NCBI GenBank assembly: GCA_002127295.1
Contig: NFUV01000001.1
Span: 2,118,538-2,182,537 of the forward strand
DNA length: 64,000 nt
Source: Chitinophagaceae bacterium IBVUCB2
GTDB lineage: Bacteria > Bacteroidota > Bacteroidia > Chitinophagales > Chitinophagaceae
Direction: 5' to 3'
Position numbers and translations under genes: made by a program. The notes under the pieces were generated by a model. That model was not told where the DNA came from and ran no database searches. It saw nothing but the letters and a program-made list of their open reading frames with translations. This document shows positions 3,234-62,208 of this stretch, piece by piece (the first letter of the stretch is position 1; every line of letters starts with the position of its first letter).

Positions 3234-4625
3234 TTATTTCTTTTCCAACTCTTCGATTGTTTTTTTAGCATTGGCCAACCGTATTGCTTTATTCTTCTCC
3301 ACCAATTTATGCGTAGCCCATTTTTCTAATTTATGATGTAATGGAACTAATAATGCTGCAATACAAACTAATGCCAGTAGCATAAGCACCGGAGAATGGT
3401 GGGTGATGCGTTCTAAAAATGGATGAAGTAGTAGGTTTAGAAATTCAAATACTAATAGCAACGCTACCACTCCAAGAAACTGAATCAGCTTTGTATTGCT
3501 GATATGGCGGCGGCTGAGCATTAAAAATAAAAAGATAAATGTGATAATACCGAGAGCAAGTAAGGCGTATTGAATATTTTGCTTTCGTTGCTGTTCTTCT
3601 TTTACTTTTTCTGCGGCTACTTCCTGCTGCCGCAGATCTTCTTCAAAAGTCATTAACAGTATTTGCTGATTGGCTTTGCTGCTGGTTAATGAATCATTTG
3701 CTGTTTTTAAAATTTTTGCATACTTCAAAGTGCTGTCGCAATTGGTTTTTTCATAGATATCAGCAAGTAGTTGGGCCGGCTTGCTGCTTAAATAAAAGAA
3801 AGACGTTTTGTTTACTGCGGCTATTGCTTTTTTAGCATATAGTATACAGGAGTCTGTTTGATTGACCCGTTGATAATGCTGGGCTAACCCCGTATACGCC
3901 AAATTAAGGTATCTGACATAGGATGTGCCGTATGTTTCTTTTATGGCCATATTAAAATAACTAATGGCAAGAGGCGCATTACCCAGTTTGCTATGTACAC
4001 CGCCTAAGTTTGTAAAAATCAGACCAGGTGCAAGGTTGGTATCTTTTAATCGTAATGATATTTCATAAGCCCGTTGAGAATACATCAACGAGGAATCTAA
4101 TTTATTGGTAGCAAGATATACCTGGCCTAAATTTAGCGGAGCCCAACTTTTTATTATTTCAACTTTCCCCATTTCAGCATGTGATGTTGCAGACAGGTAT
4201 AAGCTAATTGCTTTGTCATATTCCTCACGGTCTTTGTAAACATGCGCCATTTGATTTTCAGTGATAGCCAAAAGCGACAGGTTGTTGCTTTTTTCTGCTA
4301 ATGCGATAGCCCGGTGGTGATAATCTAACGCTTTAATATTGTTTCCCAGCAAGCGGTATCCCTGGCCTAAAAAGCTATAGGAATACGCTTCTTGATTGCT
4401 GTTTTTTGTTGTTTGTGAATGATTCAGCATTTTTAATCCCGTTTCAATAATCCATTCAGGATTATTATTGACTTCAAGGGTGTAAAGTCGTACCAATAAA
4501 TCAACTTTTTTGTCTTCATCTTTTTCTATAGCAACTTGTTGCAGTATGGAATCTACGTTTGGCTTTTGTGCAAATAAATTTTGCATACTTGCAATAAAAC
4601 AAAAGAGGATTACTTTTTTTTTCAT
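3234..4625 (-). CDS. TPR-repeat membrane protein (sensor-like, no kinase domain)
   Basis: A 463-aa protein with a signal peptide (ends FAQ), about six TPR-type helical repeats (residues 25-310), a Lys/Glu/Gln-rich coiled coil (about 325-350), and then three membrane spans (about 352-370, 380-400, 412-430). A charged tail follows. In Bacteroidota this order often precedes a LytS- or HisKA-type kinase domain, but here the protein stops after the spans. It may act as a periplasmic protein-protein scaffold. The gap to the downstream acylase gene is 16 bases. Confidence 0.8.
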   Translation of the reverse strand: MKKKVILFCFIASMQNLFAQKPNVDSILQQVAIEKDEDKKVDLLVRLYTLEVNNNPEWIIETGLKMLNHSQTTKNSNQEAYSYSFLGQGYRLLGNNIKALDYHHRAIALAEKSNNLSLLAITENQMAHVYKDREEYDKAISLYLSATSHAEMGKVEIIKSWAPLNLGQVYLATNKLDSSLMYSQRAYEISLRLKDTNLAPGLIFTNLGGVHSKLGNAPLAISYFNMAIKETYGTSYVRYLNLAYTGLAQHYQRVNQTDSCILYAKKAIAAVNKTSFFYLSSKPAQLLADIYEKTNCDSTLKYAKILKTANDSLTSSKANQQILLMTFEEDLRQQEVAAEKVKEEQQRKQNIQYALLALGIITFIFLFLMLSRRHISNTKLIQFLGVVALLLVFEFLNLLLHPFLERITHHSPVLMLLALVCIAALLVPLHHKLEKWATHKLVEKNKAIRLANAKKTIEELEKK

Positions 4626-4632
4626 AATTCAG

Positions 4633-5955
4633 TTAATTCGTTTTCTTCTTTGGTTGTTGCTGTGTGCTGCAATGTATACCACCGCCGCTCCAGTTTTGCA
4701 TGATAGCATCAATAAATACGATCTTTCTTCCCGGAAATTGTTCTTCAAATATTTTACGTACCTGTTCTTCTTTTTCTTTGGAGGAACCGAAAGCTGTATA
4801 TGTAGGTAATAATACCAAACCATTTGTAACTAAGTAGTTCATGTAGCTGCCCGCAGGAACTCTCAACAAAGTATCACCCACTTTTGGTTTTTCGGAAGGA
4901 ATGAAATTATTAACTTCCACATCAAATGTTACTTCCGCAGAATCAATTTTTTCTCTTGCCAGTATTTTCTTTGTAATCAAGTCCGGTAATGGTACTTTAA
5001 TAATGGTAAACGACTTACCATCCTGGTCTTTTGAAGCCTTAAGAATCTTATAGTTCTCATTCATCCGTTCATAATTCATTCGGTTGATGGGGTTGAGGTC
5101 TTTTTCTTTTTCATCAACCCATGCCAGCAGAATAGTTTTTGGATCAGCAAAACGAACAAACTCATCGGTATGGCCGCCAGTGCCACCGCCCACATAGTTA
5201 GCTACTATGCGTCGAAAAAAACTTTTAGGATCATCTGCCAAACCTTCCTTCATCCAGATAATATTGCTGACCCCTAAAACCTTTTTCATTTCTGCTTCAA
5301 TATATTCTTTTTTCATATCAGGGTTGCGCTGAAAAACCGTTGCTTCACATAGTATCAGCGTACCTGCTCCGTTTACTTCAATGGCACCACCTTCATGTAT
5401 CACATTTGTTTTAAAAATTTTTGCTCCTTCCTTTATAGCCATCAGGCTGTCAACAGCTGCTGTTTGTAATCTAAATTCTTTTCGCAAATTCAAATAATGA
5501 GTGACACTGTCTTTATTGCCATTATACTTTAGCTCCAAAAAGCCAGGGTATCCATAACTGTTCCAGGCAAAATCCGCAACGCCCAATTCTCCTTTTCCAT
5601 TTACTAAAAAAGCCGCTCCATGGTCACGGATCCAATAACGATCTCCGGGTATGATGTACCGCTTGTACATATTACTGTCAACTCCCTGCGATGTGAGATA
5701 TGTTATCGCTTTATACATCAGCGTATCATTATGAAAAGCCATCTTCACCGTAACGTTCGGTGCCAACGCTTTGATGATGTCTGCAACAGCAGGGTAGTAG
5801 CCACGCAAACTATCTTTCTCCCACCCGAGCCAAACAGCATCATGTGGCTCCCACTCAGCAGGCATATAAAATGTTTCGGCAGGACGTTCGAACTTTTTTG
5901 TATTGCAGGCAAAAAGGATGAATGCTGAAAAGGCTACTCTGATAAATAGTTTCAT
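4633..5955 (-). CDS. agmatine deiminase / peptidylarginine deiminase family lipoprotein
   Basis: A 440-aa protein with a lipobox (ILFAC, Cys17), so probably lipid-anchored. The guanidino-group-modifying fold is clear: DRYWIRDHG at 105-113, HEGGAIEV at 187-194, GGHTDEF at 260-266 (His262, Asp264), and the nucleophile in GGGIHC (Cys429). The family hydrolyses agmatine or arginine side chains to carbamoyl products plus ammonia. The lipoprotein export signal fits the bacterial peptidylarginine deiminase branch better than cytosolic AguA. It is separated from the M20 hydrolase by 3 bases and is likely co-transcribed with it. Confidence 0.88.
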   Translation of the reverse strand: MKLFIRVAFSAFILFACNTKKFERPAETFYMPAEWEPHDAVWLGWEKDSLRGYYPAVADIIKALAPNVTVKMAFHNDTLMYKAITYLTSQGVDSNMYKRYIIPGDRYWIRDHGAAFLVNGKGELGVADFAWNSYGYPGFLELKYNGNKDSVTHYLNLRKEFRLQTAAVDSLMAIKEGAKIFKTNVIHEGGAIEVNGAGTLILCEATVFQRNPDMKKEYIEAEMKKVLGVSNIIWMKEGLADDPKSFFRRIVANYVGGGTGGHTDEFVRFADPKTILLAWVDEKEKDLNPINRMNYERMNENYKILKASKDQDGKSFTIIKVPLPDLITKKILAREKIDSAEVTFDVEVNNFIPSEKPKVGDTLLRVPAGSYMNYLVTNGLVLLPTYTAFGSSKEKEEQVRKIFEEQFPGRKIVFIDAIMQNWSGGGIHCSTQQQPKKKTN

Positions 5956-59183: not shown

Positions 59184-60113
59184 TTATATCTTAACCTGTA
59201 ATCCAACACCGATGATGGATTTTAATTGCAAAGCAGGCGATGATTTCTCTTTACCAAAAACTTTTACATCATCATCATAGATCATATCCACATTCCAGCT
59301 AAAGGCCAGGAATTTGGCAAATTTGGCAGAAAGAGAATTGGTCATGTATAGATCTGCATTCAATGGATCTTTTTTATAGTTCGAAAAAATATCAATTCTT
59401 CCTCTATACGACACATGCTTGTTGAATGCTTTTTGATAATTGATAGTGGCAAATGCACCAAGATGGTTGAGACTATGTGTACCCGGTGCTAATCCATACT
59501 CACCTCGGGCAGCAAGACTATCATCTTTTACAATTATCCATCGGGAGGTAACGGGTGAAACAAAAATGGAAAGATGATTACCGGCCTTGTAATCTACACC
59601 GAGACTGGTAACCACATAAGCAGGAGAAAGCAATGCGGAAGCAAAACTTTTTTTACTGTCCTGGTAAGTATAGCCTTTAAAAAATTGCGAACGAAAATTT
59701 ACAAGCGATGCAAGATTCAAATGTTTATCTAATGAATAACCATACTTGGAAACAAAATCAAAACGATCATCATTTTTGCGACTGCCGAGACTGGTAGTGT
59801 TTACATAGCCAAAGTTTATATCAAGGGTATTATCCCAGCTTTGTTTATTTTTTTTATAAAAACCATGCAGGTTAAGTGAAGTTGAAATGGTCAATGAAAA
59901 ATCATCGCCACCGGCAGCCCAATTACTAAGACTACTTTGTCCAACATTTATATTATACAACGCACCTGCTTTCCATTTTTTCCAGGCACTATCCGGAATA
60001 TCCTTTTTAATTGTTCGCAAAGATTCGACTTGCAACTTTTTAATAATTGCATCTTGTGAAAACACCAATTGATAACTGGCAAGCAAAAGAAAAAGACCTG
60101 GTATTTTTTTCAT
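59184..60113 (-). CDS. DUF3078 family protein, copy A
   Basis: A 309-aa protein with a signal peptide (ends VFSQ). The signature LSNWAAGGDDFSLTIS marks DUF3078, and alternating hydrophobic strands across the rest, ending in GVGLQVKI, suggest an outer-membrane beta-barrel. The last residues lack a C-terminal aromatic. Function is unknown. It shares clear similarity with copy B over its length. Confidence 0.88.
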   Translation of the reverse strand: MKKIPGLFLLLASYQLVFSQDAIIKKLQVESLRTIKKDIPDSAWKKWKAGALYNINVGQSSLSNWAAGGDDFSLTISTSLNLHGFYKKNKQSWDNTLDINFGYVNTTSLGSRKNDDRFDFVSKYGYSLDKHLNLASLVNFRSQFFKGYTYQDSKKSFASALLSPAYVVTSLGVDYKAGNHLSIFVSPVTSRWIIVKDDSLAARGEYGLAPGTHSLNHLGAFATINYQKAFNKHVSYRGRIDIFSNYKKDPLNADLYMTNSLSAKFAKFLAFSWNVDMIYDDDVKVFGKEKSSPALQLKSIIGVGLQVKI

Positions 60114-60361: not shown

Positions 60362-61288
60362 TTAGAATTTAACCAGCAATCCAATACCTACTAATGATTT
60401 TACTTGTAAGGCCGGAGAAGTTCTGTTAGGACCGAATAATTTAACATCATCATCATAAATAAGATCCACTCCCCAGGTGGCAGATAATACTTTCGACAAT
60501 TTTACATTGAGGATGTTTGACATAAATAAGTCGACATTCTGTGGGTTTCTTCTGTAGTTGGAGAACAGATCAAGTCTGGCTTTATAGGTAATGTTCTTAG
60601 AGATTTCTTTCATGTAATTGATAGAAGCAAAAGCACCGATCTCCAGGTTAGATTTTTGACCGGGTGTAACTCCATAGGCACCTTTGTTGGATAAGGCGGT
60701 ATCTCTTACAATTACCCAACGGGCAGTTAGTGGTGAAATGAAAATAGAAAGTTCTTTGATTGGTTTATAATCAAGACCTGCACTCACTAATAAATAACCC
60801 GGCGCCAGAAAATTAGAGGAAAGCGATTTAACATTGTTATCAAATGTATATCCTTTAAAAAATTGCGAACGAAGATTGACCAAACCTGCAAGATTGAGTT
60901 TGGAGGTTAATGCGTAGCCATATTTGGATAAGAGATCAAAACGGTCGTCATTTTTTCTTCCGCCGATGCTGGTGGATTTTACATAACCGAGGTTAAAATC
61001 AAATGTATTGTCCCAGCTATGTTTATCTTTTTGATAAAAGGCATACATGCTTAACAATGAATTTACGGCGAGGGAAAATTCATCTCCACCAGCTGCCCAG
61101 TTAGTCAGGGAGGCTTGCGAAACATTAAGACTATAAATGCCACCCCTTTTCCAATTTTTTTTACTGGTATCTGCAGGATCTTTTTTTACTGATTTACCAG
61201 ATTCTGCCTGCAAAGCTTTTACAGTCTGGTCCTGGGAATTAGCAGACAAAGCGATAACTGCAATTAGAATAGTTGCGATTATTTTCAT
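60362..61288 (-). CDS. DUF3078 family protein, copy B
   Basis: A 308-aa protein with a signal peptide (ends ANSQDQ). It has LTNWAAGGDEFSLAVN, SIGGRKNDDRFDLLSKYGYAL and the end GIGLLVKF. It is a clear paralog of copy A, with a hydrophobic-alternation pattern throughout. The ncRNA gene at 61372-61621 lies upstream on the same strand. Confidence 0.88.
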   Translation of the reverse strand: MKIIATILIAVIALSANSQDQTVKALQAESGKSVKKDPADTSKKNWKRGGIYSLNVSQASLTNWAAGGDEFSLAVNSLLSMYAFYQKDKHSWDNTFDFNLGYVKSTSIGGRKNDDRFDLLSKYGYALTSKLNLAGLVNLRSQFFKGYTFDNNVKSLSSNFLAPGYLLVSAGLDYKPIKELSIFISPLTARWVIVRDTALSNKGAYGVTPGQKSNLEIGAFASINYMKEISKNITYKARLDLFSNYRRNPQNVDLFMSNILNVKLSKVLSATWGVDLIYDDDVKLFGPNRTSPALQVKSLVGIGLLVKF

Positions 61289-61371
61289 GGTACAATTATT
61301 TTGGCTGAAAAAATAAATCCGAAACTGACTGCAAGGTAATAATTCACAAAAAGACTCTTATATAGACAAAA

Positions 61372-61399
61372 AAAGGCCTCCGAAATTTCGGAGGCCTTT
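61372..61399 (-). terminator. intrinsic terminator of the ncRNA gene
   Basis: GGCCTCCGAA and TTCGGAGGCC pair in a perfect stem with a 2-base AT centre, and on the minus strand it is followed by seven T. Oriented for the RNA gene upstream on the minus strand. Confidence 0.88.
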
Positions 61400-61621
61400 C
61401 AAAGTGCTGTAGGGGGAGGGTTCGAACCTCCACGGGGCAGTTAGCTGTAGTACAAAGTTCGGTGGTCGACCCCGGTCGCTTTGATATTGCTATCAAAACG
61501 GCTCTATGCTACGTTTATCCTGTTTTCCCCACCCCCGAGACAAGAGGGTATGTCTGCCATGCTTTCGCAATTTCATCACCCCACAGTATTATCAAGAACT
61601 GGTGCCTTTCGGCGTTGTTGA
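61372..61621 (-). ncRNA. structured ncRNA with tmRNA-like features
   Basis: A ~225-250 nt transcript is predicted between a promoter at 61627-61659 and the terminator at 61372. Features on the minus strand: a long-range stem CTGTGGGG (61579-61586) with CCCCTACAG (61407-61415); a T-arm-like hairpin GGAGGTTCGAACCCTCC (61415-61431); a possible pseudoknot at 61531-61555; a GCAA-capped hairpin at 61477-61500; and an open frame of 8 codons at 61504-61530 (GENRINVA). Like tmRNA it has acceptor, T-arm and a short tag ORF. Unlike it, the transcript is short, and the G-U pair is at 4-69, not 3-70. Its identity is uncertain. Confidence 0.65.
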
Positions 61622-61626
61622 TGACA

Positions 61627-61659
61627 CAAATATAGGCTTCAAAAGCTTTTCATTCCAAA
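61627..61659 (-). promoter_or_regulatory. Bacteroidota promoter for the ncRNA gene
   Basis: On the minus strand TATATTTG (61627-61634) fits TAnnTTTG and TTTG (61656-61659) lies 21 bases upstream. The start would be near 61621, matching the beginning of the structured region. Confidence 0.65.
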
Positions 61660-61743: not shown

Positions 61744-62208
61744 ATGGCAGCCAAATTAAATCTTGATAATCTCGATCTTCAGATCATTCACCACATGATG
61801 GAGAATGCAGAAATTTCTTACGCCGATCTCGGAAAAAAACTATTTGTTTCCGGTGGCACCATTCATGTTCGTATCAAAAAACTACAAGAGGCAGGAGTGG
61901 TTAAAGGTACACGGTTGAAGGCAGATTTAAAACAACTAGGATATGATGTTATCGCCTTCATAGGCATTTACCTCAAAGAAAGTTCGTTGTATGATACGGT
62001 AGCAAAAGATCTTCAAAAAATTCCGGAGATAGTGCGATTGAATTATACAACCGGCAACTACAGCATGTTTGCTGAAATAGTTTGTAAGGATATTACGCAA
62101 CTTCGGTTTGTGCTACATGATCAGTTACAAAAAATAAAAGGCATTGAACGAACAGAAACTTTTATATCACTCGACGAAAGTTTTAGCCGGAATGTAAAAG
62201 TGATGTAG
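61744..62208 (+). CDS. Lrp/AsnC family transcriptional regulator
   Basis: A 154-aa protein with an N-terminal winged helix (LDNLDLQIIHHMMENAEISYADLGKKLFVSGGTIHVRIKKLQEAG, residues 8-50) and a C-terminal ligand-binding RAM domain with the usual GNYSMFAEIV strand. The effector cannot be told; amino acids are typical. An inverted repeat lies in its leader. A dispersed repeat follows its stop. Confidence 0.92.
   Translation: MAAKLNLDNLDLQIIHHMMENAEISYADLGKKLFVSGGTIHVRIKKLQEAGVVKGTRLKADLKQLGYDVIAFIGIYLKESSLYDTVAKDLQKIPEIVRLNYTTGNYSMFAEIVCKDITQLRFVLHDQLQKIKGIERTETFISLDESFSRNVKVM

Follow-up and report, generated by a model that had tools for sequence, protein, structure and literature searches.

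The RNA gene and its surroundings

The DNA analysed here, referred to as the window, is a stretch of 64,000 nucleotides (nt) from Chitinophagaceae bacterium IBVUCB2 (GCA_002127295.1, contig NFUV01000001.1), and coordinates are positions in this window unless another contig or locus is named. On the minus strand of the window, an RNA gene with a promoter, a leader and a terminator is flanked by a DUF3078 gene and a divergent regulator gene, and the RNA is a complete, covarying transfer RNA (tRNA) cloverleaf with a giant variable arm. A sequence-only reading of the window had pointed out, on the minus strand, the promoter elements TTTG and TATATTTG, a perfect terminator with a T-run, a long-range closing stem, a T arm with the loop TTCGAAC and the hairpin GCGAAAGC, all of which are present. 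Its estimate of about 225–250 nt for the RNA needs trimming, as the RNA proper has 180 nt (61585–61406), with the leader before it and the terminator after it. It had seen no TTCGAC D loop of the tmRNA type; a normal D arm was found, with the stem AUG/CAU and G18G19. The GNRA-capped hairpin that it had described does exist, inserted into the D loop, and is missing from some relatives. The parts of the locus are as follows, base counts referring to the 135 sequences described below.

61744–62208, plus strand: divergently transcribed AsnC-type regulator of 154 amino acids (PF01037, PF13404; PDB match 2cg4)
61656–61659, minus strand: promoter −33 element TTTG (pattern TTTG-N-TAnnTTTG in 18 of 19 genus loci examined)
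61627–61634, minus strand: promoter −7 element TATATTTG (same pattern, same 18 of 19 genus loci)
61594–61599, minus strand: GTTCTT in the leader (16 of 19 genus loci)
61406–61585, minus strand: tRNA-like RNA proper, U1 to C74, 180 nt (match to model R1 and covariation)
61579–61585, minus strand: 5′ strand of the acceptor stem, UGUGGGG (positions 1–7), pairing with 61408–61414
61574–61576, minus strand: 5′ strand of the D stem, AUG (positions 10–12), pairing with CAU at 61550–61552 (alignments)
61561–61568, minus strand: insertion in the D loop, a GNRA-capped hairpin GCGAAAGC (some genus members have it, others a plain loop instead)
61532–61548, minus strand: anticodon arm CCCUC UUGUCUC GGGGG (covariation at 3 of its 5 stem pairs in alignment A5)
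61539–61541, minus strand: anticodon GUC (Asp) (G34 in 132/135, U35 and C36 in 135/135)
61434–61530, minus strand: 97-nt giant variable arm (covarying outer stem GGGG/CCCC and inner stem CAG/CUG)
61504–61530, minus strand: frame formerly read as a tag, GENRINVA-stop; not a tag (stop position unconserved)
61415–61431, minus strand: T arm GGAGG UUCGAAC CCUCC (100% of cells paired in A3, A4 and A5)
61406–61414, minus strand: 3′ strand of the acceptor stem, CCCUACA, with discriminator G73 and C74 (U1-A72, G2-C71, G73 and C74 each in 135/135)
About 61368–61399, minus strand: intrinsic terminator, a perfect hairpin with a T-run (from the sequence)

The core also has U8 and G9, a D stem of 3 base pairs (bp) and G18G19 in the D loop, and the variable arm further contains an internal loop, GAUAAA/GCUAA in the genus with variants elsewhere, and distal hairpins. 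The GTTCTT of the leader, which we take to be boxA-like, may mark antiterminated stable-RNA transcription. The covariance model R1, in which the window's own sequence is also included, matched the RNA at its own locus (G000:C1:2179943-2180122) with 176.3 bits and E 4.5e-56.

Fold, conservation and distribution

A stretch of 255 nt folded at −93.6 kcal/mol, compared with −71.5 ± 4.6 kcal/mol in 200 shuffles (z = −4.84; 0 shuffles as good). At the DNA level (E ≤ 0.01), matches occurred in 25 of 58 relatives, 20 of these 25 being in the same genus (own genome included), and because relatives have such matches and the promoter pattern is kept in the genus, the RNA is more than a product of chance. 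Compensatory change in relatives, named as a check by the sequence-only reading, was strongly positive, for a cloverleaf. In the alignment of 22 members, 94.8% of cells were paired and covariation was 0.273, compared with 0.137 in shuffled (0/500) and 0.064–0.123 in slid alignments. In three larger sets, which were fitted to the model structure so that their pairing and covariation figures lean towards it, the corresponding values were 96.5% and 0.441 for 86 distinct rows picked by the model (0.176 shuffled, 0/500; 0.079–0.117 slid), and 95.0% in each of two other model-aligned sets, with covariation of 0.335 and 0.316 (0.163 and 0.149 shuffled). The acceptor stem had 100% of its cells paired and both-side changes at four of seven pairs in A4 and in A5. 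The D stem was supported by all four alignments, the anticodon stem covaried in the two later larger ones, and the outer and inner stems of the variable arm covaried; support was weakest for the distal helix of this arm in the form drawn, with 53–73% pairing. A canonical elongator cloverleaf is thus present, with a 7-bp acceptor stem, D, anticodon and T arms and a T loop of the form UUCRANN, together with a variable region of 37–129 nt (median 80 in 170 sequences).

The D arm is of the type TGATGAAATTGG.AGACAT, which, read by eye, we take to be like that of tRNA-Leu; unlike tRNA-Leu, the RNA has G73 and not A73, a GUC anticodon loop and the giant variable arm. One relative of 77 nt in G396 (L356:138-214, 66 bits) keeps U1-A72 and G73 and has the loop CTATCTC, with A34, and a short variable loop; it may have lost the giant arm, or this arm may be dispensable. 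A self-splicing intron was rejected, since the variable region of the smallest members is only about 40 nt and no intron core was seen by eye. After the GACCAC motif, palindromes of at least 6 letters were found in 39 of 48 distinct windows of viral members (A2), compared with 30% in shuffles, and were not enriched in bacteria (A3, 13/48 with 29% shuffled; A1, 2/14 with 30% shuffled). The viral palindromes could reflect pairing between two RNA molecules. According to PMC7609411, tRNA-Sec, selC* and allo-tRNA likewise show unusual features and a cloverleaf whose variable arm is long. They are, however, translation tRNAs, whereas the RNA described here has 7/5 acceptor/T stems, a variable region of 37–129 nt with an internal loop, and mostly U at position 37.

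The frame GGG GAA AAC AGG ATA AAC GTA GCA TAG exists as the sequence-only reading had reported, but it is not a tag, being unconserved as coding sequence: a stop exactly 8 codons into the frame was present in 16/22 (A1), 49/94 (A3, bacterial) and 18/57 (A2, viral) distinct sequences. On reading the sequences, AGGATAAAC varied within the genus only at its last base, whose pairing partner changed to match (one member with an insertion aside), and outside the genus its changes ignored codon boundaries. Because pairing is kept within the genus and codons are ignored outside it, the constraint lies on the RNA and not on a peptide, and a conserved RNA motif accounts for the 8-codon frame.

Together with the tRNA-like end, this frame with its stop had suggested a minimal or decayed transfer-messenger RNA (tmRNA), or else another tRNA-like RNA; only the last of these three options stands. 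Like tmRNA, the RNA has a tRNA-like end joined to a larger RNA and is carried by some of the same viral contigs, four of which (L227, L269, L278 and L284) hold a separate tmRNA together with the giant-arm RNA. However, a canonical ssrA lies elsewhere in the genome (G000:C1:556825-557195, 111.9 bits), ARAGORN reported nothing on the window, and the tmRNA model RF00023 was absent from the 15 sub-threshold matches (E ≤ 10) obtained at the locus with Rfam 15, which lay mostly over the terminator. As no Rfam family reached its gathering score in the window, a two-piece tmRNA and other Rfam families were rejected as well. Unlike tmRNA, the RNA lacks a conserved tag frame, its D and anticodon arms are complete, and its determinants are those of Asp rather than Ala, the pair 3-70 being U-A in 135/135 and not the G3-U70 of tmRNA alanine identity. 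A minimal or decayed tmRNA is thus refuted for practical purposes and retains a negligible probability. The tags predicted for the four viral tmRNAs comprise three long ones ending in GADYAVAA and one ANEYAVAA.

Model R1 was built from 22 members that all have the Asp loop bases, and leans mildly towards them. In a sample of 298 genomes of the order, 222 matched at E ≤ 0.001 with a bimodal distribution of scores; strong matches (E < 1e-28) were counted by hand in 171 genomes, and the remainder resemble ordinary tRNAs. In a sample of 395 genomes of the phylum, strong matches reached families f23, f28, f29, f30 and f68. These large searches miss some members, as few candidates were scored in each genome. 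Scanning named genomes with a sequence pattern returned at least 120 stretches, and the 80 listed were nearly all Bacteroidota by title, with one Ignavibacteriales; the listed bacterial matches included Chitinophaga (C. pinensis among them), Dyadobacter (with D. fermentans), Spirosoma, Cyclobacterium, Saprospiraceae and others. In viral contigs the pattern was found in 98 stretches, and all 80 of those examined, including one truncated at the 3′ end, scored at least 94 bits with R1, the other matches reaching at most 43. The family is widespread and apparently undescribed, with no Rfam 15 family at gathering score and no description recognised in the literature searched.

Four viral contigs have a tRNA gene at a distance of 4 nt from the RNA, namely tRNA-Ser (L209, L261 and L269) or tRNA-Met (L278), a spacing that suggests that the giant-arm RNA is processed like a tRNA. 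Three or four copies per locus occur in L153, L139, L111, L370 (of G206), L350, L351 and L376. The viral gene neighbours, among them terminase, PhoH and exonuclease, are uninformative on function, and two members searched against cultured phages gave no match.

Identity bases, gatB and the regulator

Loop bases were counted in 139 distinct matches picked by the covariance model alone, 8 of which were also in older pattern-picked sets. Three matches cut by the locus end and the relative on L356 were dropped, leaving 135 complete sequences. An older set of 170 sequences had mostly been picked by a pattern requiring GTCTC in the anticodon loop and filtered on GTC, so its loop counts are circular and were not used; its acceptor bases, which lie outside the selecting pattern, are U1-A72 in 169/170 and G73 in 170/170. 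Among the 135 sequences, G73, C74, U35, C36, C38, U1-A72, G2-C71 and U3-A70 were each invariant, and U35, C36, C38 and nearly always G34 were kept while the free loop positions varied. Position 37 was U in 124, C in 6 and G in 5 sequences, and position 33 was U in 110, C in 17, A in 7 and G in 1, so that the elongator rule of U33 with a purine at 37 does not hold across the set. Such departures in the anticodon loop speak against decoding, though not in every member. Position 20a, by our own numbering, is A.

According to PMC9976931, G73, G34, U35, C36 and C38 are the strong determinants of aspartate identity, U1-A72 confers amidation of Asp-tRNA-Asn, and G1-C72 with U20a prevents amidation in tRNA-Asp. 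The RNA has these strong determinants throughout (135/135; G34 in 132/135) and, with 20a taken by our own numbering, has U1-A72 without G1-C72 or U20a. G1-C72 was seen by eye in two phage tRNA-Asp genes, which served as comparators because the stretches fetched from the own genome held tRNA-Ala and tRNA-Ser only. Judged by these bases, the RNA joins the charging bases of Asp to the amidation pair of Asn.

If GatCAB acts on the RNA, the two should co-occur, and this was tested via gatB. In 40 genomes, a hand-chosen mix and not a random sample, gatB was present in 22/22 genomes with the RNA and in 6/18 without it. Five of these 6 lack glutaminyl-tRNA synthetase (GlnRS), and because of this GatCAB is needed in them for Gln-tRNA; the sixth, G614, has GlnRS. 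Asparaginyl-tRNA synthetase (AsnRS) was present in 40/40. In the order sample, 164 of 298 genomes had both the RNA and gatB, 7 the RNA only, 56 gatB only and 71 neither; among the 223 with GlnRS, the respective numbers were 139, 5, 15 and 64 (odds ratio about 119). The 15 gatB-only genomes with GlnRS include G173, whose RNA is cut at a contig end, and three of genus g12. The RNA and gatB also vary together within genera g1, g27, g50, g79 and g121.

Upstream of the RNA, 51 of 80 bacterial loci have a divergently transcribed homologue of the Lrp/AsnC-family regulator, about 155 amino acids long, whereas the gene on the downstream side differs between loci. The copy in the window has the AsnC helix–turn–helix and ligand-binding domains, and its closest relative among solved structures is E. 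coli AsnC (2cg4; E 3.6e-34, 121 bits), the next match scoring 72 and Lrp 40. Seven small genomes of the own genus without the RNA also lack the regulator, and the six tested lack gatB. G246, which has a true AsnB and neither the RNA nor gatB, kept the regulator, 118 bp from the next gene. A regulator near gatB in G051 is a different paralogue. In E. coli, asnC and asnA are divergent. There AsnC activates asnA, and asparagine abolishes this activation (PMC4482635). The order at the present locus is alike in that an AsnC-like regulator stands beside a gene that would make asparagine, but an RNA gene is here in place of the synthetase gene.

Proposed role and rival explanations

Considering these results together, we regard it as fairly probable that the RNA is a non-decoding carrier tRNA for asparagine synthesis by aspartyl-tRNA synthetase (AspRS) and GatCAB. 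Ordinary AspRS would charge the RNA with aspartate via the GUC anticodon loop and G73, and GatCAB would convert the attached aspartate to asparagine, an amidation that is proposed because U1-A72 is present and both protecting features of tRNA-Asp are missing. Decoding of Asp codons would probably be prevented by the giant arm and by the changes in the anticodon loop, where 37 is mostly U and 33 is free. Asparagine would then be released and used by AsnRS, release being the weakest step, and the divergent AsnC-type regulator may tune expression to asparagine supply.

The distribution of asparagine synthetases among the 40 chosen genomes supports this carrier role without proving it. AsnA was found in five genomes, three of them without the RNA (G301, G331 and G586) and two with it (G052 and G484). 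Of 20 AsnB-family proteins scanned, six were true asparagine synthase B (NF006949, cut-off 499; 912–959 bits), and all six came from genomes without the RNA (G331, G426, G246, G011, G348 and G382). Below that cut-off were ten proteins from eight genomes with the RNA (258–312 bits) and four from genomes without it (259–270 bits). Neither AsnA nor an AsnB-family match over cut-off was found in five genomes with the RNA (G140, G317, G206, G507 and G566), and the same holds for five without it (G016, G003, G030, G397 and G614).

According to PMC4206432, GatCAB, AsnRS and GlnRS occur together in 68 of 547 genera, 18 of the 68 being without asparagine synthetase and including some Bacteroidetes; where synthetases exist, the retained GatCAB is perhaps vestigial, and the known tRNA-dependent route to asparagine uses tRNA-Asn and a relaxed AspRS. 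The carrier proposed here resembles this route of AspRS and GatCAB on tRNA-Asn (Deinococcus, Thermus and Bdellovibrio; PMC4206432) in Asp charging, in U1-A72 for GatCAB and in that most of the carriers of the RNA tested also have AsnRS and GlnRS. It differs in that the RNA involved is a separate one, which has an Asp anticodon, apparently does not decode and would be open to charging by a discriminating AspRS. Why GatCAB should be present in bacteria equipped with both AsnRS and GlnRS has long been puzzling, and in Bacteroidota the RNA, if the proposal is true, would be its substrate. A dedicated non-decoding carrier RNA for asparagine would, to our knowledge, be new.

Several points weigh against the carrier role. 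It is predicted from sequence, structure and linkage, and we know of no release step. G34 is replaced by C or U in three genomes (G633, G484 and G699; loci L086, L347 and L348), although these keep U35, C36, C38 and G73. With a purine at 37 in 5/135 and U33 in 110/135, the RNA might yet decode, and of the features of bacterial tRNA-Asp, G1-C72, which is strictly conserved there, is absent (U1-A72 in 135/135) and G10 is found in only 14/135. Twenty of the 223 genomes with GlnRS disagree with the linkage to gatB (15 with gatB and no detected RNA, 5 the reverse), and the co-occurrence counts ignore kinship, as they carry no phylogenetic correction. This linkage was examined in bacterial genomes, and the regulator is present in 0/80 viral loci. 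In G051 and G052 the regulator and the RNA are on different contigs, and a regulator homologue is found in six genomes without the RNA (G246, G301, G331, G348, G382 and G426). Regarding the synthetases, two genomes have both the RNA and AsnA, as given above, and the AsnB family model TIGR01536 scored over cut-off in 30/40 genomes, including 17/22 with the RNA, whose AsnB-family amidotransferases might make asparagine. Finally, PMC4206432 describes U1-A72 in the tRNA-Asn of its 18 candidate genera and proposes that synthesis takes place on tRNA-Asn.

This last proposal, made for genera with AsnRS, GlnRS and GatCAB that include some Bacteroidetes, together with the U1-A72 of their tRNA-Asn (PMC4206432), would also suit an RNA that acts as a scaffold or sensor, organising AspRS and GatCAB or reporting Asp/Asn charging, with a non-discriminating AspRS supporting asparagine synthesis on ordinary tRNA-Asn. 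Co-occurrence with gatB fits any such partner role. However, the acceptor end of the RNA is complete, and G73 and the identity bases are retained, as in a substrate, and with this RNA a discriminating AspRS would suffice; we consider a scaffold or sensor unlikely. The charged RNA, bearing Asp or perhaps subsequently Asn, could instead be a donor for non-ribosomal transfer to a peptide, a lipid or the cell wall. Such a donor would share the same determinants and would agree with the lack of a known release step, and non-translational tRNAs occur elsewhere. On the other side, no second gene recurs as the regulator does in the open reading frame clusters of the 80 bacterial loci, most of these clusters being unnamed, and the AsnC-type regulator and the linkage to gatB point to asparagine, which makes a donor role rather unlikely. 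An unusual decoding isoacceptor of tRNA-Asp would account for the GUC anticodon in 132/135, for U33 in 110/135 and for the position of the RNA among tRNA genes in viral contigs. It is quite improbable, given that 37 is U in 124 and C in 6 of 135 sequences, that 33 is C, A or G in 25/135, that the variable region extends up to 129 nt, and that normal tRNA-Asp genes exist in two of the same viral contigs (L261 and L269).

Returning to the carrier for asparagine, its truth would mean that an RNA gene has replaced a metabolic enzyme gene beside its regulator, that a tRNA has been freed from decoding, and that asparagine is made on an RNA without a relaxed AspRS. A wider version is tentative, and we doubt it more than we believe it: much of Bacteroidia might make asparagine on a dedicated, non-decoding RNA acting as a cofactor in central metabolism, the giant arm might release or sense asparagine, and phages might carry the RNA so as to raise the supply or keep the carrier running while they infect.

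Other odd tRNA-like genes were noted in viral contigs, at L230:9979-10112, 4587-4706 and 4342-4504, L234:9734-9831, L280:716-819, L266:9443-9525 and L245:7213-7350. Except for that of L245, they have in common an acceptor like AGUCAGG/CCUGACU and aberrant anticodon and variable regions; ARAGORN found no odd tRNA-like gene in L230 or L245. A second copy of the 3′ end of the giant-arm RNA (TTCGATCCCTCCCCCTACAGC) lies roughly 60–100 nt downstream in L003 and L014, which looks like a duplication of the 3′ part. Near the RNA gene in the window, two similar genes lie next to each other on the minus strand (59184–60113 and 60362–61288), the second of which matches DUF3078.
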